Assembly (NCBI RefSeq): GCF_023566355.1 | Contig: NZ_JAKNSW010000001.1 | Coordinates: 310,001 to 374,000 of the forward strand | Reading direction: 5' to 3' | Source: Mesoplasma sp. JKS002658 | GTDB taxonomy: Bacteria > Bacillota_I > Bacilli_A > Mycoplasmatales > Mycoplasmataceae | Length of the DNA stretch: 64,000 nucleotides | Part shown: piece after piece, positions 2,054 through 61,806 of the stretch | How the letters are laid out: each line of letters opens with the position of its first letter | How positions within the stretch are numbered: position 1 is the stretch's first letter | Notes under the pieces: model-generated | The model's database searches: none | Seen by the model: only the letters and a program-made list of their open reading frames with translations | Told to the model about the DNA's origin: nothing | Made by a program: the position numbers and the translations under genes

Positions 2054-3427
2054 ATGTTAAGAAAAATTAAAAACCCTTATAGTTGAGAAAATCTCCTTGC
2101 TTTTGGTGTGCTTGCTATCTTTTGTATTTTTGGCTTGATTAGTTGAATTGTTGCTAGTAATTATTCTGTGGATTTAAAGTTTTCTGAAGTCCTGGATCAT
2201 GGAATGAAGTACAAGTTTATCCGGTTTTGAACTATGTTTCGGGTTTTAGATGGCTTTGAAGGAGTAATTACTTTTATTTTTCCAATGGGATATATTGTTA
2301 TTGAATCCTTTCTTTTAGCGATGAAAAAAGCTCGTCCTCACGGATGGTTTGCCCATTATCACACAACTTCTGTTTGAATTTATTTGTTCATGTCTGGAGG
2401 GTGAACTGCTGGAGTTACCCTTCGCTCTGTTACCTTCTTTTTTGGTGATCAAGGGTTTGGTCAGGGATACTGGTACTGGTTTCAAACTGGGTGAAGCTAT
2501 CTAATCCCTGGATTTGTTGTTTCACTAACAATTCAGTTAGTTTATTTGTGAACTGCTACTTGGTATGTGCACCAAAAATTAGCTCGTCGTCACGACTTTT
2601 TAGTTCAGCAGTATTGAAAGCGTGCTTGTGTGGCACTACTAAGTATTGGTTTTATTTATATCCCGGTTTTAATTCTAAAAACTGGTTTTGGTCGCCCGTA
2701 TTTATATAACATTCGCTTTGGTGATTTATTTGTCAAAATGCAAAGTCAAGCTCCAGAACGTTTTGCTCATTACTTGAATCAAAGTCCAACTACTTGGCAT
2801 CGTAACGCAGGTTTTAACCCTAATCCTTACACTGCTGAACAATTAAAAGCCTTGTTTGGTGAACGGTATTATCAGTATGTCGAAAATCAACAACAACTGG
2901 TGCAGACTTGAGTTGATGATTGAAATCAAAATCATCCTGCCAACCAGATTGCAATTAATAACCATTATTACTTCAATTTTCCTGAAAATAGTCCTCGTGA
3001 TCTCTTTAACAATCCTCGTAGGGGTTGAAACTACTTTGATTCAAACCAAACTTATCCTTGATATAAACCAACCGGACAAGGGAATTGAAACGGAGATAAT
3101 AACTTGTTAGCAGCAGCAATTCCTGATGAAGGTGCCTTTCCTAGTGGTCATATGGTAGCAACTTTTGGGATTTGTTTGACAGTTTATCTTTTTAAAGATG
3201 ACCACGATAAACAAGTAGTTATCATTCGTCGGATTGGGTTTGTGATTGGTTTAATCTTTTATCTAGATATGTTCTTTTCTTTAGCGGTTTCTTTAAGTCA
3301 CTGGTGAAGCGACTTAGGATTTAGTATGTTTTGAACTGGCATTGGGGTTTTACTTGCACATGTAACAATGCTCTTGATTAATAAATTTTTAATTCTGCCC
3401 TTTTTTAGATGGGTTAAAATTAGTTAA
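2054..3427 (+). CDS. PAP2-family membrane phosphatase, copy B
   Basis: A 457-residue paralogue of the preceding gene, in the same orientation, with the same plan: N-terminal membrane helices, a long loop and the C-terminal PAP2 core. It keeps FPSGHMVATFG and SLSHWWSDLG. In the degenerate first motif the arginine of copy A (GKWRGDN) is replaced by asparagine (GNWNGDN), so the phosphate-binding basic residue may be missing. Either the two copies have different activities or copy B is failing. The N-terminus (MLRKIKNPYSWENLL) differs from copy A, while several internal blocks are nearly identical in DNA. Strong Shine-Dalgarno sequences are absent before both genes. Confidence 0.75.
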
Positions 3428-18504: not shown

Positions 18505-21354
18505 ATGAGCAAAGATGGAAACTCACCCAAAAAAAATAATTCAGGACAAAAAAGTGGTGCTTGATTTGGGTCAGTTTGAAAAAAAAAGGAAGATCGCAAT
18601 CTCTCACAAAAGCCCGCTTTAGGAAAAAGGATTCGTACCTGGTTTGGATTAGTCTGAAAAACTTATATCACAGAGTTTGAAGACCGAGTGTTAAGTAGTC
18701 CTAAACGTTTAATTAAGTTTGCAGGAATTTCGATTATTCCAATTATTTATGGAGTTATTTGTATTGTTGCTTTCTGAAACCCGATTCAAAATATTGGTCG
18801 TGCACCAATGGTTATCATGGATCAAGATCAAGCTGTAGTCATGGTTCAATCGACTAAAGAAAACCCAACCACGACCACTAGTGCAACTAATCCTTACTTT
18901 TTTGGTCCTTTAGAAAGTATCAGTGATGTTGGTGTTAATGACATCAATAGCCAAATGGGTTATGATAGTGCTGATGAAACAAAAAGCATCCACCAATCGA
19001 GTAATGGTGCTTGGTTAATTCCTAATAGCTTAATTGATACGAACGTAAAAATCGCCAACCTTGAAGCAACAATTTTGGATGTCTTAAATAATCAAGCCAG
19101 TGCACCCACAATTACCTTAGCCACTCATGTTGATGGAGATAATGCTAGTTTTAGTTATGATTCAACCAATCCTACTTTTAACTTAAAGGTGATGAGTGGT
19201 TGAACCATTGCTAAAAGTGTTCTTCAGCCCTCAGGTGCTAATGAGAGTGATTTAACTCACACTTTTAAATCCAACAAAATTAATAGTACTTATCAGTTAA
19301 CTAATATTACTTATTTAAATAATCAAAAAGAGATTGATCATCAGTGAGAAGGAACAAAGTACTATGTTCAAATGAAGATTCCTGATGGTTTTATTGAAAA
19401 ACTTTTAACTTATATGGGAACAATGCTTGCTAAAAGTAATGCTACTCAAAATGATGATGGAACCACTACTGATCTTGATGGAGACTTTTTGACCCAATTG
19501 GTTACTAGTATGAAACCTCTTGATGTTTGAACTACCTTTGAGCGAAATTTCATTTTTGGATATTATTTAACCACGATTAGTAACGTTATTGGTGGAGTTT
19601 TTATCAAAGCGATTCCAACAATATTAAACAACGCACTAATTAGTAATACTGGGGCTAACATTTCTTATAAGGGAGCCACAATTAAGAAGTTAATTGGTTC
19701 AAGTAATGGTGAAGATGTCTTATGAGGTATTGAAGGTTCAACCACGCAAACAACTTTAGAAGATGCTACTACTTATGTCATGCCTGATGCTTCGAAATTA
19801 CCAGTTAATACTGCCACTAATGCTAATATTCGTGATTACACTGTTTTTGGAAATATTGATGCTGGGTTAAATAATGGAGAAATAGATCCAAATGCTACTG
19901 CTGATGAAGTTGGTGGTAAGTTTATTAATTTGTTAAAAACTGTGTTAAATACAGCAAGTAACTCGCCTTTATTAACCAGAATAATCGCGATTGCTAAAGC
20001 GCTTGGCATTAGTGGAGATGCAGAAAGTGTGATTGATTTACTAAACAAGGTAATTGCTGTAGTTAAGGGAGTTTTGGGTAATGCTCCAGTAGATCAAACC
20101 TTTGTTACGCTTAACTATGAAACTTATCAAGTTACTACTGGTCAAAAAAGTCTTGCTAGCACCAAATATTTAAGTAAGATTGTTTCAACAATTTGGAAGC
20201 AAATCACAGGAACTGATATTAATTATGATAATTTTAATTCTTCACCAATTTTTACTACCAAGGCGATTATGACCAACGATCAGTTTGTTACGAATTTAAA
20301 CATCAATATTAAAAACAATTCTACTTATCTTTTAGGAGCTACTAACATTAGCGAGTTACTGCCAAGAATTTTAGCACAACTACTTGCTAAAAATAGTTAT
20401 GGAATGACTAATCAAAAGTTGACTACGATGACGATTAAAGGTTCCAAATACGGTCTATATGGAATTGGTTTAGGGCAATTCTTCCTCTTAATTGGACTAT
20501 ATGTTGGTTCATTACTACAAAGTTTTATTTTTGATCGGGCTAAAAGAACCAAAAAAGCAACTGCTACAAGTTGATATGTGGGAAAATGAATGCTCTTTGC
20601 TACAATTGCCTTAGTTCAAGGAACACTTGTTACTTGAGTCACCTACGCAGTAGGGTGACACCAACTTGGAGTTAGCACGATGGTTTATATCTGGTTATGA
20701 TTGATGTTTAGCGTTTTAATTTTCATGACCATTATTCAGGGCGTCTGGTTCACAATTGAAGATGAGGCTGTTGGACGATTTTGTTGTGTTATTGTTTTAG
20801 TCCTTTCTTTAGCAGCTGGAGGGGGAACTTTTCCAGCTCTCAGTCAGTTTGCCTTCTTCCATGCCATTAGTTATGTTGTTCCTTTCACCTATGTTTTAAA
20901 GGGACTAGGAGCGATTGTTTATGGAGTTTCTGAATCAGGAACAACTGCTTTAACAACTAATTACATTTTCACACAATTGGGTATTCTTCTAATTTACTTT
21001 GTATTATTTATGACCCTTGGTTTGAGTGTTGGTAGTCGGTTATTGATGCGACAAATGAATTGGGGTTCACCTCGTGGAAAAATTGTCGTTCAAGCAATGG
21101 AGAACCTGGGCAGAGACAAAGAAGCAAAGATCTTTGCTACTGAGAAAAAGAGTCACCAATGATTAACTAAACATGGACGGGTTGGTTATAAATACCACTG
21201 GAACACTTTAAAACCTGATTTTGATGAAGAACTCTACTTTGCGTGTCGAGCAATTCGCTTAGATGATGGATTTAAGTGGTGAAAACAAAAAGAGCACGAC
21301 TTTGTCCAAAAACCAAACTATAGTGATGAAGAGTCAATTACACGAAACGAATAA
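18505..21354 (+). CDS. YhgE/Pip-like large membrane protein
   Basis: A 949-residue protein. A basic N-terminal tail is followed by a membrane helix (residues about 75-95), then the segment NPIQNIGRAPMVIMDQD, which resembles the start of the YhgE/Pip family (ABC-2-permease-like). A large extracytoplasmic region of about 500 residues follows, then five or six C-terminal membrane helices and a 70-residue charged tail. The layout of one N-terminal helix, a big external domain and a C-terminal helix bundle is that of YhgE/Pip proteins, associated elsewhere with phage receptors and type VII-related export. The external domain is rich in Asn, Thr and Ser. AAAGGA precedes the start. Confidence 0.7.
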
Positions 21355-21360
21355 TAGTCT

Positions 21361-21393
21361 GAAAACTCCCCTTTTAAAATAAGAGGAGTTTTC
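21361..21393 (+). terminator. Hairpin after the YhgE-like gene
   Basis: A 9-bp stem (GAAAACTCC with GGAGTTTTC) followed by a T-rich but broken tail. Probable terminator. Confidence 0.55.
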
Positions 21394-21424
21394 ATTCTCA
21401 TTTGGAAATTAAAAAAAGAAAAAA

Positions 21425-21454
21425 TTGCAGTATCTAATTATTAGTTAATATAAT
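21425..21454 (+). promoter_or_regulatory. Promoter of the ATPase-like gene
   Basis: TTGCAG at 21425-21430 and TATAAT at 21449-21454, with an 18-base spacer, 47 bases before the start codon. Confidence 0.6.
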
Positions 21455-21501: not shown

Positions 21502-24246
21502 ATGCCAAAAACAGAAGTAAACCAAGTGGTCAAGACACCTTCGGCTAAAAAAATTATTAAGTATGCTAATAGTTCTATTGGTCAAATCCTAGATTCTTTG
21601 GATGCACCAAGCTTTGGTTTAACCGAACAATATGTAGCTTCAAAAGTTAAAAACCAAACCAAAAAAGAACACTTTCCCTGGCTTAAGTACTTCTTGGAAT
21701 CTTTTAAAGATGTTTTTACTTTAATTTTAGTAGCGATTATTATTTATAATCTGGTGATGTATGGATTAAATCCAAGCGCTAAAGATGCTTATACTTACTT
21801 AGCTGGAGCGCTATTAGTTTTTATTTCAGTTGGAATTTCTGTAGTGGTAACTGAATATACTAATTATGGTATTTGAAAAGGAAACCAAACCTTTTATAAC
21901 CATCACATTGAAACGGTCAAAGTTTTACGCAACGTTGTTTTAAATCCAGCAACTAATCCGTTTGCTAACCCTCTCCAGGCTCATGATTTAATGGGTCATT
22001 TAACTGATGTTGATGCACTTAACCTTCTTCGAGGTGATGTCTTTTATCTTCAACCAGGCGACATTGTTCCAGTAGATGCTCGCATTGTTTATGCAGATAA
22101 CTTTTATGTTAGTCAAGAATTATTAACTGGTTTAACCACTCCTGTTAATAAGAAGTACTTTAACAGCTCGTTTTCACCAAACATTTTTAATTTAACTGAT
22201 ATCATTTATCGTGGTAGTAAAGTCACTAGCGGAACTTGTTGAGCATTAAGTTTTAGTGATCTTAACAAAAACGTTTACAATGAACAGGTTGAAAAAATTC
22301 GGACTCGAGAAAGTAAAAGTACGTTTGACGATCAGGTTAAACGGGTGACCAGAATTTTAATCTACCTTTTAATTATTTTTGTTCCCACAATTTTTATTAT
22401 GGTTGCTTTATTATCTGGATCACGAAGTGGTTTTAGTGATGGTCAAACTTGAATTAGTGCTGTTTTATTTGCGATGGCAGTAGCAATTGCATTAAGTCCT
22501 GATGGTTTACCAATGATGCTTAGTGCTGCTTTTTCTCGGGTTCGTTCGCGTTTGGCAAAGAAGAAAATTCAAATTCGAGAACTTTCATCAGTTCAAAATA
22601 TCGGATCAATGGATGTTTTAGCGATTGATGTAGACAAAATCTTTGTGGATAAAGATTTCCATATTCAAAGTATGACCGGAATTGATGGCAATAAAAACGA
22701 ACTTATTCTTGATTATTTGCTACTTTCAATCAGTGTTTCACCTTCTGCAAATTTAGAGTTGAATAACTTACTTTTAAAAACATCCAAGTATCAAAATCGC
22801 TTGGAAACTTTAAAGAAACGTTATGTTTTTATTAATCGCACTACCAACCAGAATAGTTTTTATCTTCATTTTTACGACCAAGAGCAACAACAAGAATTAA
22901 TCATTAAGCGTGATAAAATCGACAAAGCATTAAATCTTGCTACCTTAGCAATAAAAAAAGATAACCAAGTAGTAGAGTTAACTGGTGAACAAAAACTTGA
23001 CCATCTTTATCAGGATAACCGTAAGGGTGCTTTTTATAGTATTGGAATTGATTATAAGTATCTTGAAAAAGGAACAAAAGATTATTCGACTGGAACGTTT
23101 TTTTATGATGACTACATCTTCTTAGGAAGAATTGATTTATTGAGTTCAACTAAAAGTGGCAGCAGTTCGATTGTTAAAGAAATTCAACACCAAGATATTA
23201 ACGTTTTGTTATTTTCAAAAAAGAGTTTAGGAGAAGTAATTGCTTTAGCGCGAGACCTTAATTTTAAAATTAAAAAAGCAGTTGATGGTAATGAAATTAT
23301 TAACTACACTGATAAACAATTAACTGAAAAAATTAGGAATGCAAATGTCTTTTTTAACTTGAATTTAAATGCCCAAACTCGGATTATTCGTCTCTTTAAA
23401 AAGTTAAATAACACCATTGGTTTTTTAGGTGCTGATAGTGAAGATAGTTTCCAACTTTTAACAGCTGATATTGGTATTACCTTAACTAATAGTGATGATT
23501 TTGGTAAATATTGTGCCACTCTGGTGATTAATCATTTGGATTTAATGCAGTTAATTACTTCCATTAAAGAGTCACGGATTGGGTTGATGAACACAGTTAA
23601 ATACATTAAGTTAAAGGTTACTGGAACAATTTCATTAACTTTAAAAATGTTGTTTGGAATTCTTTTCTTTAATCATGAATCAATCTCAGCAATCGAATTG
23701 TTGATTCAAAATATGGCTTATAATGTGATTGAATACACAATTATTTATGACAAAATTAACGATCAGTATTTGATTAAACCAAGTCAGTGAAAAACAAAGT
23801 CGATTATTCCTTTTGCCCTCTCAAATGCAATAATTTTAGTTGGATTAAACATTGTAATGACCTTAGTTTTAACCTTTGCTTTTAACCCGCACCTGTTAAC
23901 TAACATTCGTCAAGAACAAGGCGATTGAATCCACCAGTTAGAGCAAATTCAAACTTCAATCTTTATTGGTGATAGTCTCTCTCATATTACCTTTATCTTG
24001 GTAGCTAGAGATAACTATGCCCGATTCTATCAAAGTCGACCAAGTAAACCATTGACAATTGCTTTAATTACGGGAGTAGCTTTCTTTTTGGCCCTTCCTG
24101 TGATTCCTAAAATTCAAACTGCCTTTGATATGGTTACGCCGTGATGAGAGTTCTACTTGATGATTATTGGAGCGATGGTAATTTTAATGTTTGGAGTTGA
24201 CTTCTTAAAAGAGATTTACTTCCGCCATCAACGAACCTGATTTTAA
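21502..24246 (+). CDS. P-type ATPase homologue lacking catalytic motifs (pseudo-ATPase)
   Basis: A 914-residue membrane protein with the full architecture of an MgtA-type P-type ATPase: an N-terminal helix pair, an actuator domain (LLRGDVFYLQPGDIVPVDAR), a helix with LSPDGLPMMLS in place of TPEMLPMI, a large cytoplasmic domain and C-terminal helices. The catalytic residues are changed: TGES reads TGLTTPV (about residue 208), DKTGT reads IDVDKIFVD (D376 kept, the rest lost), and GDGxND reads GADSED (643-648). It should not form a normal phosphoenzyme or pump ions. The frame is long and uninterrupted, so it is not decaying. It could regulate a true pump such as the ATPase at 47482 or act as a membrane scaffold; this is inference. 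Confidence 0.8.
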
Positions 24247-24396: not shown

Positions 24397-24442
24397 AAAA
24401 TCCCACCCTGAATGGTTAGTGACATTCAGGGTGGGATTTTTC
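24397..24442 (+). terminator. Terminator after tRNA-Lys
   Basis: An 18-bp perfect stem with an 8-base loop and a T tract, the strongest hairpin in this part of the window. Confidence 0.9.
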
Positions 24443-47459: not shown

Positions 47460-47493
47460 AAAAAAGACCAAGAGAAAGTTCCTAGTCTTTTTT
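47460..47493 (-). terminator. Terminator after the cation ATPase gene
   Basis: Stem AAAAAAGAC with GTCTTTTTT and a 16-base loop; the gene's stop codon is in the stem-loop boundary. Moderate strength. Confidence 0.55.
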
Positions 47494-50385
47494 ATTTTTT
47501 TTCATTTGATCGCGTTTCTTTTCGTTGTCTTGTTTAACCATTCCACTGACAAGCGCGCGGTTTCTTTCTCACGGGTTCAAGGCGTAGTGATATCCAAAGA
47601 AAACCACTCCATCAGTTATCAAAATTAGTAGTGGTGAAGCAAGAGCAAAAGCAATTGAGACAAAGATAATTCAGCAGTTATGAACACTTCAATCGTGGGT
47701 TGGTAGCAAACTAAATACTTCATTATTTAATCCAGGAATAAAGATAATTAACAAATCCAGTCCCAGAGCAATTGCTGAAAACAATAATAAAGGTTTATTT
47801 CATTCGTATTTCAGTTTGCGATATGATTTTCAGTTTGATAAACGAATAATGTGAGCAATGATTGTTGGAGCAAAGGTAGCAACAATAAACATTGCCGTGC
47901 GCCCATAAACTAAAATCTGAGTTTTTGTAGTGCTATTACTAATGAAATTAGAATCCTTAATCGCTTGTTGTCAATTATCAAACGAATGACTCATTCCGTC
48001 TTTGAAAGCATCAGCAGGAAGGTTTGTATATAAATCACTTGGTGTGACAATCATTCCTACATAAAAAGCAGCAATCATCACTCCTCCCTGAATAATTCCA
48101 ATCTTTAAAATTGGGAATAATAAACCCTTTAGTAAACCACTATTATTATTCTTAATTGGTGGTAGACCCATGAGCGAATTATCATTTGGACCCATTCCCA
48201 TTGAAATTGCTAACAATGATTCCACCACTAAGTTAATTCACAAAATATCAGTGGCTTCTAAAGGTGAATTATGATTAATTAACGAAACAATGAGAATTCC
48301 TAAAACATTAGCAATGTTAACCCCTAACAAGAAGACAATCGTTCTTCTAATCTTTTGTCAGACGTTTCTACCTTCGTTAACCCCTTTCATCATGGTAGCA
48401 AAGTTGTCATCACTCAAGATTACATCTGAAGCTTGTTTAGCTACATCAGTACCAGTAATTCCCATCGCTACTCCAATATCAGCAATACTTAAACTCGGAG
48501 CATCATTAACTCCATCCCCAGTCATTGAAGTGATGTTATTTTTAGCTTGCAACGCTTGAACAATTCTAACCTTATGTTCAGGATTTACCCGAGCAAAAAC
48601 ATTGATCGTATCGACTACTCGATTTAACTGCTCATCATCAAGACTTTGTAAAGTTTTACTTGTCATCACTTCATAATCACTATAAGCAATTCCCAATTCA
48701 CGAGCAATTGCCAACGCAGTTATCTGATGATCACCAGTAATCATTACTACTCTAATCCCAGCCTGATGTGCTGTTTTCACTGCTTGAACAGCCGAATCAC
48801 GAACAGGATCAATCATTCCTACAGCGCCTATAAAGATTAAATTTTCTTCATAAGCACCTGGTTTTTGATCTAATCCATAAGCAAAACCAAGGACTCTTAA
48901 AGCTTGATCAGAAAGTTCTTCACTTAATTTTAAAATTGCCTCTTTATCTTTAGAAGATAAAGTTAACACTTTGTTTTTAACTTGAATACGTGTACATCTT
49001 TTTAATAATTCATCAATCGCTCCTTTAACAGCGACTAATTGGTGATCACCATCTTTATTAATCGTTGTCATCAACTTTCTTTTACTATCAAAAGGAATTT
49101 CATCCAAACGTTTAAACTTCTTGCGGTATTTAATTTCATCAACTTTCATCAACTCCGCAAAATCAATTAAAGCTAACTCGGTTGGATCACCAACCCGATC
49201 ATCACCTTGAGTAATTGCATCATTTGGCAAGACTAACAACTTCTTAAAAATATCTTTCTCATGGTTATCAGGAGTTTTTAAATATTCAGCAGCAGCAATA
49301 ATCTCACTATTGATAATTACTTTTTGTACTGTCATCCTATTTTGGGTTAGGGTTCCGGTTTTATCTGTACAAATAACATTAACTGAACCAAGGGTTTCAA
49401 CACTAGCAAGTTTTTTAACAATCACGTTTTCTTCAGCCAGACGTTTAGTTGAAAATGATAAGGTAATTGAAACAACAGCGCTCAAGGATTCGGGAATTAC
49501 TCCAATTGCTAAAGTAATTGCAACCATTAAATAGCTTGACCAAGAAGTTTTTTCACCACTTAAATACAAACCAATAAAAATAATAATTCCAATCAAAACA
49601 GCAGCAATAGAAATTCAATAACTGAACTTTGTTAATTTCTTTTCTAGGGGAGTTTGACTAACTTTATTATCATTAATAGTTTGAGCAATTTTCCCAATTT
49701 CAGTATCCAAACCTGTCTTAATAACTACACCAACACCCCGACCACTAACTGCAAAGGTATTCATAAAACAAATATTGGTTTGATCAGCCAAGATATCAGT
49801 TTTTTTAATTGCTTTGGCGTGTTTATCAACAGGAAATGATTCACCAGTTAAAATCGCTTCATCAACAGTGAAATCACTACTTTCAATAACCCGTAGTTCT
49901 GCAGGGATATATCTTCCTGCTTCAATTACAACAACATCTCCAACCACAAGTTGGGTAGCATCAATTTCAAAAGTTTTGTTATTACGGATAACAATTGCTT
50001 GGGGACGAGAAAGTGACTTTAAGCTATCAACTGACTTCCTTGCTTTGACTGTTTGGACAGTTTCTAAAATCGCATCAATGACCACAATCAAAATAATGAC
50101 AATAAAATCAATAAAATCGCCAATTTCTAAGGGGATATCTCAATTCCCGATTTTGGGAGCAATGACTGAAATTATCGCAGCAATCATTAAAATAATTTGC
50201 AAAGGTTCAACCAAGGCTAACAAAAAAGTGATATATCAAGGTCGGGTTTTTCCTTCAGGAATTTGGTTTTTTCCGTTTTTTTCTAACCTAAGACTAGCTT
50301 CTTCTTGACTTAGACCAGTTTCAAAATTTGTATCAACCACAGTTGCTACTTCTTGAGTGGTTAGGGTTTCTCAATCAGGTTTCAT
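47482..50385 (-). CDS. Cation-transporting P-type ATPase (Ca2+-type, class IIA)
   Basis: A 967-residue ion pump with every catalytic motif intact: AILTGESFPV (actuator), IPESLSAVV (membrane ion site), VICTDKTGTLTQNRM (phosphorylation, about residue 344), and TGDGVNDAPSL (hinge). The PES and TGES patterns fit SERCA/PMR1-like pumps that export Ca2+, although Na+ or Mn2+ cannot be excluded. The C-terminus has six helices and a short basic tail. The start ATG lies 14 bases after engB's stop in transcript order... the gene itself ends before the MATE promoter. It is the working counterpart of the dead homologue at 21502. Confidence 0.93.
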
Positions 50386-50399
50386 TCTGCTTCCTTTCT

Positions 50400-50999
50400 T
50401 TATGATAGGGGGGTTAAATTCAAATACTGACAAATTGTTAAATAAATCTGGTCAATATTTTGGTTTTTGGTCACTGAAGTTTTAATTAAAGGAGTGGTGG
50501 AATCAACATTCAAACTAGTACGAATTAACTCAACATTTTTTTTAATCTCGTTTTGCTTTAGTTTATCTAACTTCGTACCAATTAAAACCACAGGAACATG
50601 ATAATGTTTAAGATAATCATACATTATTAAATCATCTTTACTTGGAGAGTGACGTAAATCAACTAACATTAAAACTAATCTAAGGTTAGTTCGATTGGTT
50701 AAATATTCTTCCATCATTGGGGCAAAACTTGCTTTTAAATCACTGCTAACTTGAGCATAACCATACCCTGGTGCATCAACAATTCGAAACTGGTGATGGT
50801 TAATATCAAAAAAGTTTAAAAGACGGGTTTTTCCGGGGTGTGAAGACACTTTTGCCATTTTTTTATTATTCGTTAACGCGTTAATGATTGAAGATTTTCC
50901 GACATTAGAACGACCAACAAACAACACTTCAGGAACTTCATCATCAATTCAACCATCCTTACTAGCTGCTGATTTTACAAATTCTGCTCATTTAATCAT
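50400..50999 (-). CDS. engB: Ribosome biogenesis GTPase EngB (YsxC)
   Basis: A small GTPase needed for 50S subunit assembly. The 199-residue protein has GRSNVGKSSIINAL (P-loop), KTRLLNFF, VDAPGYGYAQ (G3, family signature) and GTKLDKL (G4, in place of TKxD). The start overlaps the upstream membrane gene by 8 bases, with AAAGGAG before it. It is the fourth gene of the unit that begins at 52836; the cation ATPase follows 14 bases later and may be co-transcribed. Confidence 0.95.
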
Positions 51000-59190: not shown

Positions 59191-61806
59191 CTAATAGGTT
59201 TCTTGCCAAATACGTGTTGTTCATCAAATATTTCAAGAACCAGGAATCGCAATCGATGGACCGTCGGAAAAACCAAGATAAATATTGCAATAAAAATTAG
59301 GAAGATGTAAAACATATCCTGGAGTATTTAAGTCTTCTATAGAAGGCGTTACTCCATTAGGGAAGTTTCAAGCTCAATTATTGACGTAAACTGTTGTAAT
59401 GTTTTTAGCATAATCACAAAATTCTTTAAGTTCTCAGTTTAAGAATTCTTTAAATCGCACTGCCAAATTTCCTAATTGTGTAAGATAACCAGACCAAACT
59501 GTAGGTTGAAGTAAATCATTATCTGAAAGATCTTTTATAGCAGCAGCAAAATTATCCTTTGTTAAAATGTATCTAAGTCTAAGTTCAACAGTACCACGAT
59601 ATTGACTATCAAGTTTAGCAACAATATTCAAACGACCGTTTACTGAATATTTAGGTGCTTGGAAAGTTTCTAGAAAAACTTCATCAAGATTTAAAAGATT
59701 ATCTTTAAAAACATCACTATTTTTCTCTAAGAATACTTTAAAAACTTCTTCTTGTGTTGATTCTAAAGGTACTGCAATATTTGTTTCAAGACTTAAATCG
59801 TCTAAATTAATTATATTATTAAGGTTAACTTTTACACTACCACTATACTTACTATCTGGTTTAGCTTTAACGCTTAATTCACCAAATGAATTTTTACTTG
59901 GGGCAGTAAAACTCTCGATTTCAAGATTATCCCGTAAATCGCTAACTTCAGGGTTTAACTTAATAAATGCATCAAAAGCTTCCTGTTGTTTTGTATATAC
60001 TTTATCCACTTCTAAATTAAGGTGAAGATCAGTTAATGCTGTTTGACCAATTGCAGTAACTACAATGGTAATTGAACCAGTATATTTAGTACCTAGTTTA
60101 GCTGTAATAGTTAAAGAACCAGGAGTGGTATAAGTTGGTTTTGAATACTCTGAAGTGACGACACTATCTTTAAGTTCAGTAATGCTGTTATTATTCTTTA
60201 AGAACACTTCAAAAGCAGCGTCTTCATCCATCTTTTCTGACCCAGTGATTGCACTTTTATTTAAAGTGTTTAAGTTAGTTTGTTTGATTTCTGCGAAGTT
60301 AACTGTGACACTGCCTTGGTATTTATCTTCGCTGTTAGCATTGATGACTAGTGACCCAGGAGTTCCGTAACTTGATGAAACAAATTCACCTGGTTGAACG
60401 TTTCCTCTTAAATCAGCTACATTTTTATTTAATTCTAAGAAAGCGTTAAACGCATCATCTTGATTCGTGTATGCTTCACTTAATTCTAAATTAAGGTGAA
60501 GATCAGTTAATGCTGTTTGACCAATCGCAGTAACTACAATGGTAATTGAACCAGTATATTTAGTACCTAGTTTAGCTGTAATAGTTAAAGAACCAGGAGT
60601 GGTATAAGTTGGTTTTGAATACTCTGAAGTGACGACACTATCTTTAAGTTCAGTAATGCTGTTATTATTCTTTAAGAACACTTCAAAAGCAGCGTCTTCA
60701 TCCATCTTTTCTGACCCAGTGATTGCACTTTTATTTAAAGTGTTTAAGTTAGTTTGTTTGATTTCTGCGAAGTTAACTGTGACACTGCCTTGGTATTTAT
60801 CTTCGCTGTTAGCATTGATGACTAGTGACCCAGGAGTTCCGTAACTTGATGAAACAAATTCACCTGGTTGAACGTTTCCTCTTAAATCAGCTACATTTTT
60901 ATTTAATTCTAAGAAAGCGTTAAACGCATCATCTTGATTCGTGTATGCTTCACTTAATTCTAAATTAAGGTGAAGATCAGTTAATGCTGTTTGACCAATT
61001 GCATTAATTCTAACCATAACTGATCCAGTGTATGCTGTATTTGCTTTGGCCTTAATGGTTAAAGAACCATTACTTGTGTAAGTGGCAGCAGCAAAACTAT
61101 CAACTTCAACATAGTCGTTTAAGTTAGTTCAGCTGTTATTAACTTCTAAAAAAGCGGCAAACGCGACATCTTTATTCATCTTTTCAGTACCTTGAATGAT
61201 TGTGTTTGTTACTAGGCGAGCGATATTAGTTTTGATTAGTTCTGGAATCGTGATGGTTAAAGTTCCACTGTACTTTGTATTTGGTTTTGCTTTAACTTCT
61301 AATGATCCAGTTTGGTTGTAATCTGGAGCAGTAAAATTCTCAATTTCAAGATTATCGCGTAAATCACTAACTTCAGAGTTTAACTTAATAAATGAATCAA
61401 ACGCTGCTTGTTGGTTAGTTACTGGAAGTGATAATAAAGTTTTTAGATGCAAGTCGTTTAAACTTGTTTGACCAATTGCATTAATTGTAATTATAATTGA
61501 TCCAGTGTATGCTGTATTTGCTTTGGCTTTGATTATTAAAGAACCAGGTGTAGTATAACTTGGTTCGTTAAACGTTAAGTCAACGTTTGCTTCAAGATCA
61601 GTAACGTCTTTGTTGTTGTTTAAGAAGGCTTGGAATACATCTTCTTTGGTCATGCCTTCTGAAATAGTGATTGATTCCTTATTTAAAGTTAACGTGTTTA
61701 AATCGATTTTCACTTCAGAACGATTTTTCGTTCCACAAGCGACAACACTTATAGCAGCAGTACTAGTTAAACCAATTGATCCCAAAATAGTTAATAATTT
61801 CTTCAT
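59191..61806 (-). CDS. Repeat-rich surface lipoprotein
   Basis: An 871-residue predicted lipoprotein. The signal peptide MKKLLTILGSIGLTSTAAIS ends in VVAC (cysteine at residue 24). About nine units of roughly 79 residues follow, each with an acidic helix (such as AFEVFLKNNNSITELKD) and then strands with the pattern Y-x-TPGSL-x-I-x-AK-x-x-x-x-Y-x-GS. Two types of unit alternate, and the pair at units 4-5 is repeated almost exactly at 6-7. A last non-repeat part of about 110 residues ends rich in Trp. It probably forms a string of small beta domains on the cell surface. It interrupts the usual apt-relA order. Confidence 0.85.
60010..60483 (-). repeat. 474-bp tandem repeat, copy 1
   Basis: The DNA matches 60484-60957 almost base for base (one T/C difference seen near 60052/60526). 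Each copy encodes 158 residues, that is, two alternating 79-residue units. A third copy begins at 60958 but diverges after about 45 bases. Confidence 0.9.
60484..60957 (-). repeat. 474-bp tandem repeat, copy 2
   Basis: The second copy of the unit described at 60010. The near-absence of differences implies a recent duplication or ongoing exchange. Confidence 0.9.

Follow-up and report, generated by a model that had tools for sequence, protein, structure and literature searches.

A probable pseudo-pump clade among the MgtA-type P-type ATPases of Mesoplasma and its relatives

What defines a P-type ATPase is the aspartate of the DKTGT motif, which becomes phosphorylated. The closest described pumps to the protein studied here are the P3B (IIIB) Mg2+ P-type ATPases MgtA and MgtB (PDB 8uy7), with which it shares homology over the whole length, the domain order, the ten-helix fold, the PxxLP motif in M4 and the position of the phospho-Asp. 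Compared with them, its score against the P3B Mg2+-ATPase model TIGR01524 falls well below the cut-off; KTGT, TGD and GDG are gone, and the ATP pocket, the HAD motif-III Lys and Mg2+ site I are lost. The closest precedent is eukaryotic: TMEM94, or ERMA, is a degenerate P-type ATPase-like protein whose activity is disputed. One group claims Asp-dependent Mg2+ pumping, as D427N abolishes transport though DKTGT, GDGVND and TGES are degenerate; another group denies it, and one study reports a membrane domain with a phosphatidic-acid-like lipid and no ATPase activity (PMC13322241, PMC12134183). Like the present protein, TMEM94/ERMA has the P-type ATPase fold, keeps the phospho-Asp, lacks TGES and has its GDGxND replaced; unlike it, it is eukaryotic and keeps DKxGI. 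TMEM94 was absent among the 60 PDB chains listed by our sequence search and the top 50 of our fold search, and the losses described below arose within the bacterial P3B family.

Pseudoenzymes of this class had been called hardly known in bacteria by the initial annotation of this DNA. Our literature search, which covered few subscription papers, agrees: it gave no paper on a pseudoenzyme P-type ATPase and no published description of a selected bacterial pseudo-P-type ATPase clade, the eukaryotic parallel TMEM94/ERMA aside. The clade reported here is probably such a case, pseudo-pumps being almost unknown in bacteria.

A P3B-type gene with altered catalytic motifs

The whole stretch of DNA analysed here (the window, 64,000 nucleotides) belongs to a 0.77 Mb mollicute genome, that of Mesoplasma sp. 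JKS002658. The gene of interest lies at 21502-24246 (+) and has a frame of 914 codons (914 amino acids), noted as open from the sequence. It is open under code 4, in which eight of its codons are TGA and encode Trp. Table 11 breaks the frame, which could point to an error of assembly or alignment or to a wrong choice of genetic code; this can practically be dismissed, as the same code-4 frame is found in six separately sequenced genomes and the motif alignment is gap-free.

The MgtA-type homology over the whole length, first seen by eye, holds in profile and structure searches. TIGR01524 matches residues 15-913 (E 6.9e-84, 282 bits), and the best PDB matches are MgtA (9byb/9ejn, E 5e-59; 8uy7, E 2.5e-56). 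At the level of sequence, descent from P3B ATPases can be regarded as demonstrated. Against the curated TIGR01524 cut-off of 610.75 bits, the clade members scanned score 282-349 and intact mgtA 946-955. Pfam finds PF00122 (A-domain) and PF00689 (C-terminal part) in the window protein; PF00702 (HAD hydrolase) and PF13246 (nucleotide-binding domain) match none of the six clade members, and the intact paralogue L058 matches both.

Alignment with the solved MgtA structures, gap-free around the motif sites, reads AIDVDKI for CTDKTGT, TGLT for TGES and GADSED for GDGIND, exactly as originally reported, and further SKKS for TGDN/TGDS. On the plus strand, these sites are the A-domain TGES (residues 209-212, 22126..22137), the phosphorylation loop DKTGT, which reads DVDKI with Asp376 kept (376-380, 22627..22641), the P-domain TGD, which reads SKK (572-574, 23215..23223), and the hinge GDGIND (643-648, 23428..23445); the lysine of the N-domain KGA is replaced by Arg at residue 470 (22909..22911).

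A search of 60 relatives found five further proteins with the same losses. All six members have lost KTGT after the phospho-Asp, Gly and Asp of TGD, the leading Asp of GDGxND, the Lys of HAD motif III and three N-domain residues (Phe, Lys and Arg). The phospho-Asp itself, D376 (D373 of E. coli MgtA), is invariant (6/6), and TGES, whose Glu211 is replaced in five of the six orthologues, survives in M. seiffertii (L008) alone. The initial statement that all catalytic motifs are replaced thus stands for KTGT, TGD and GDG and fails for the phospho-Asp and for the TGES of M. seiffertii; it also missed the losses of the HAD motif-III Lys, the ATP-pocket residues and the ion-binding residues. Altogether, 42 sites that are near-invariant in 38 intact paralogues have been abandoned (residue kept by at most one of the six members), including K377, T378, G379, T380, F449, K470, R512, G573, D574, K625 and D644; Phe449, Lys470 and Arg512 are presumably the ATP contacts known from P-type ATPases. 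We infer that the window protein would be unable to hydrolyse ATP or to pump.

The invariant phospho-Asp counts against a pseudo-pump, because it would be unexpected without a role. Together with one group's claim for ERMA, it makes an Asp-dependent, unorthodox activity conceivable, in which the rearranged site still phosphorylates Asp376. ERMA D427N loses transport despite degenerate DKTGT, GDGVND and TGES, and the invariant Asp645, next to the lost hinge Asp, could bind Mg2+. However, ERMA keeps the Lys of DKxGx, whereas the clade has lost Lys377, Thr378 and the motif-III Lys625; the ATP-contact Phe, Lys and Arg and ion site I are gone as well, and positions 377-380 differ among the members, with no new common motif. 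We therefore consider a still active pump improbable.

Distribution, descent and selection

The six members come from the window genome, Mesoplasma lactucae (L005), M. seiffertii (L008), M. photuris (L009), 'Acholeplasma' multilocale (L007) and the bearer of L006. Their identity to the window protein is 57% for L005 and 31-35% for L006, L007, L008 and L009. Scans of 60 genomes from the family, 298 from the order and 395 sampled from the class turned up no additional member. When the 298 order genomes were searched with a profile built from the six, these gave 1332-1412 bits and the next best protein 507, and two conserved peptides, searched in 84,980 species genomes, recovered four of the six members and nothing else. 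A tree of 45 P3B ATPases places the six members in a single monophyletic group (SH-aLRT 100) with a long stem of 1.57.

The closest intact relatives are P3B paralogues from the same genomes or group (L058; clade-2 copies such as L055), which differ from the candidate pseudo-pump in having all catalytic motifs and TIGR01524 scores that are full or near the cut-off. The clade-2 copies (L055, L056, L057, L061, L068, L011) form a second intact subfamily with PEALP in M4, and perhaps have another substrate; L055 scores 569 against the cut-off of 611. The window itself also carries an intact P-type ATPase at 47482-50433 (-), with CTDKTGT, TGES and GDGVND, which by eye is of the Ca2+ type. A second degenerate P3B ATPase, L065:274-2952 (+) (G005:C1:785486-788719), reads SDVKGV for DKTGT and RGKD for TGES. 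Like the clade, it has lost the KTGT order, the Glu of TGE and the ATP-contact F/K/R and has kept Asp376; unlike the clade, it keeps GDG, the motif-III Lys and the M4-M6 ion residues, and nearly all clade-specific residues are absent. Grouping it with the clade gave an AU p of 0.405, so that a common clade is neither supported nor rejected and L065 is at most a possible independent second loss.

The frame appears to be maintained rather than decaying, in line with the first reading of the sequence. Between the window and M. lactucae proteins, the closest pair, dN is 0.347 and dS, which is saturated, at least 1.64; for intact mgtA of these two genomes the values are 0.170 and 1.56. The pairwise dN/dS of the candidate pseudo-pump is thus at most about 0.2 (dS saturated), well below 1 and roughly twice that of intact mgtA. 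Saturation of synonymous sites and branch lengths that had run to their limit led us to set codon-model omega aside; only pairwise bounds are used. Simulated neutral drift on the window sequence produced at least 14 stop codons (mean 25 to 46), as opposed to no stop or frameshift in any of the six full-length frames, which span 31-58% identity. Purifying selection has thus acted after the loss of the catalytic residues. A decaying pseudogene on its way out might be suspected from an evolution about two times faster than that of intact mgtA and from the patchy distribution within genera, but the six uninterrupted frames, the low dN/dS and ten new invariant residues make it very unlikely.

Orthologues exist, none of them with an intact DKTGT, and the constraint on them is clear; these points favour the non-enzymatic job proposed at the outset. 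Residues for phosphorylation, dephosphorylation, nucleotide and ion binding have been lost jointly while the constraint persisted, which leads us to the reading of a selected pseudo-pump: the protein would keep the MgtA-type (P3B) fold at full length, would have lost the phosphorylation cycle and the holding of Mg2+, and would be preserved by purifying selection for another, non-pumping function. We think it probable that it is a former P3B pump with such a job.

The contrast between membrane and cytosolic conservation was also considered as a sign of lost catalysis. It is opposite in sign in the clade and in mgtA; however, the clade-2 pumps, which are intact, share the pattern of the pseudo-pump clade, so the contrast is undiagnostic and was rejected.

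Ion site, predicted structure and gene neighbourhood

Ion-site residues were mapped onto E. coli MgtA with the residue list of PMC10925321. The M4 motif PE(M/A)LP reads PDGLP in the window protein (residues 333-337, 22498..22512, +), and the change of MgtA E331 to Asp is common to all six members. N706 has become T/A/S, N709 L/I, S776 L/I/F and D780 N/H/S/A/M, and D738 is N/S in five of the six. Mg2+ site I has thus lost N709, S776 and D780, and the Mg2+-site set E331, N709, D738 and D780 is not retained. At ten sites, the clade carries an invariant residue where intact pumps have a different, likewise conserved one: D334, F344, R359, F571, D645, T660, S691, K705, S711 and K715. Two of these are lysines in the M5 segment (residues 705-715, 23614..23646, +), in which MgtA Asn706 and Asn709 are lost: Lys705 replaces MgtA Thr702, which sits on the solvated ion path (PMC10925321), and Lys715 replaces MgtA Ser712. 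On the tentative partner model set out below, the M5 lysines would take the place of the missing cation in the membrane site.

An AlphaFold model built with 41 aligned rows reached a pLDDT of 82.9 and a pTM of 0.79 and retains the ten-helix P-type ATPase membrane fold. Its best solved match in the fold search is chain 8uy7_A of the E. coli MgtA dimer (TM 0.77 over 922 columns). This agreement is partly built in, because the alignment included intact pumps; it shows that the protein is compatible with the MgtA fold and is not independent proof of it. Aligning only the six members gave a poor model (pLDDT 63).

Upstream of the gene lies a YhgE/Pip-family membrane protein (949 amino acids, 18505..21354, +), which adjoins it in three of the six bearers. 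Its middle part is large and poorly conserved, and most of the relatives within the family have the protein, some of them in several copies. Genes yhgE and ribF flank the candidate pseudo-pump in the window genome, M. lactucae and G020; in G003, G016 and G009, yhgE and ribF are adjacent without it, in G029 and G023 yhgE is apart from it, and in the three multilocale-group bearers it is located elsewhere than between yhgE and ribF. As the yhgE-ribF locus occurs without it in relatives, a functional link to YhgE was dropped. Vertical descent with losses and one relocation fits the gene positions best.

A hairpin at 21360..21394, listed on the minus strand but with a symmetric stem, is a probable terminator separating the yhgE and pseudo-pump transcripts. 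A perfect TATAAT, seen by eye at 21449-21454, makes a promoter for the gene plausible. Despite these two elements, the earlier assertion of its own promoter and ribosome binding site has weak support, as a promoter scan did not rise above shuffles (12 found against 14.2 +/- 3.4 expected). Another hairpin (24397-24440, 18 pairs), between tRNA-Lys and ribF, is terminator-like on both strands. Elsewhere in the window, 499-1899 and 2054-3427 (+) encode, in tandem, two membrane proteins that closely resemble each other and carry a PSGHM motif, with the look of PAP2-type phosphatases, and 59191-61806 (-) encodes a putative lipoprotein with long near-identical internal repeats, such as TALTDLHLNLELSEAYTNQDDAFNAFLELNKNVADLRGN, present twice.

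Possible roles and significance

If the candidate pseudo-pump no longer transports Mg2+, we propose two possibilities for its action. First, it may act by contact with another protein, the likeliest being the intact MgtA of the same genome, whose non-catalytic partner or regulator it would be, as the locked copy in a mixed dimer; this we put forward tentatively. Because E. coli MgtA forms dimers (PMC10925321), the intact MgtA, also present in every bearer genome (6/6), is the natural candidate. In its most specific form, a dedicated regulator would pair with intact MgtA, and the membrane-site Lys, standing in for Mg2+, would lock one conformation and so set the activity of the true pump; so detailed a scheme is rather unlikely. 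Three observations count against the partner step. Relatives without the candidate pseudo-pump carry intact MgtA just as often, and K548, the sole conserved contact of the MgtA dimer interface, is general to all intact P3B copies, so that a heterodimer inferred from interface residues was rejected. Third, no conserved gene neighbour marking a partner was found among the bearers' loci. Other Mg2+ proteins were considered: in 16 genomes there was no CNNM and no CorA over the cut-off, which removes both as partners, and MgtE occurs in all 16, bearers and non-bearers alike.

Second, the protein may act independently of intact MgtA, as a stand-alone non-ATPase membrane protein that senses lipids or ions, forms a passive conduit or provides structural anchorage. 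The neighbour and co-occurrence searches gave no partner, the model retains the ten-helix membrane fold, clade-specific residues lie in M4-M5, and the membrane domain of TMEM94 holds a phosphatidic-acid-like lipid with no ATPase activity in one study. On the other hand, conservation of the cytosolic P domain (57-61% in the multilocale-group pseudo-pumps) comes close to that in an intact sister pump (63-66%), which argues that the cytosolic head is not idle. We regard this possibility as a real one whose chances fall somewhat short of even.

Homology-based annotation may label such proteins as Mg2+ pumps, which should be read as a warning. The candidate pseudo-pump opens a test of a regulatory use for MgtA dimers. 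Bacterial proteins that retain the fold and the Asp, yet have shed almost all the rest, would show uses of the P-type ATPase fold without pumping, and would provide an experimentally tractable parallel in bacteria to the disputed TMEM94/ERMA.
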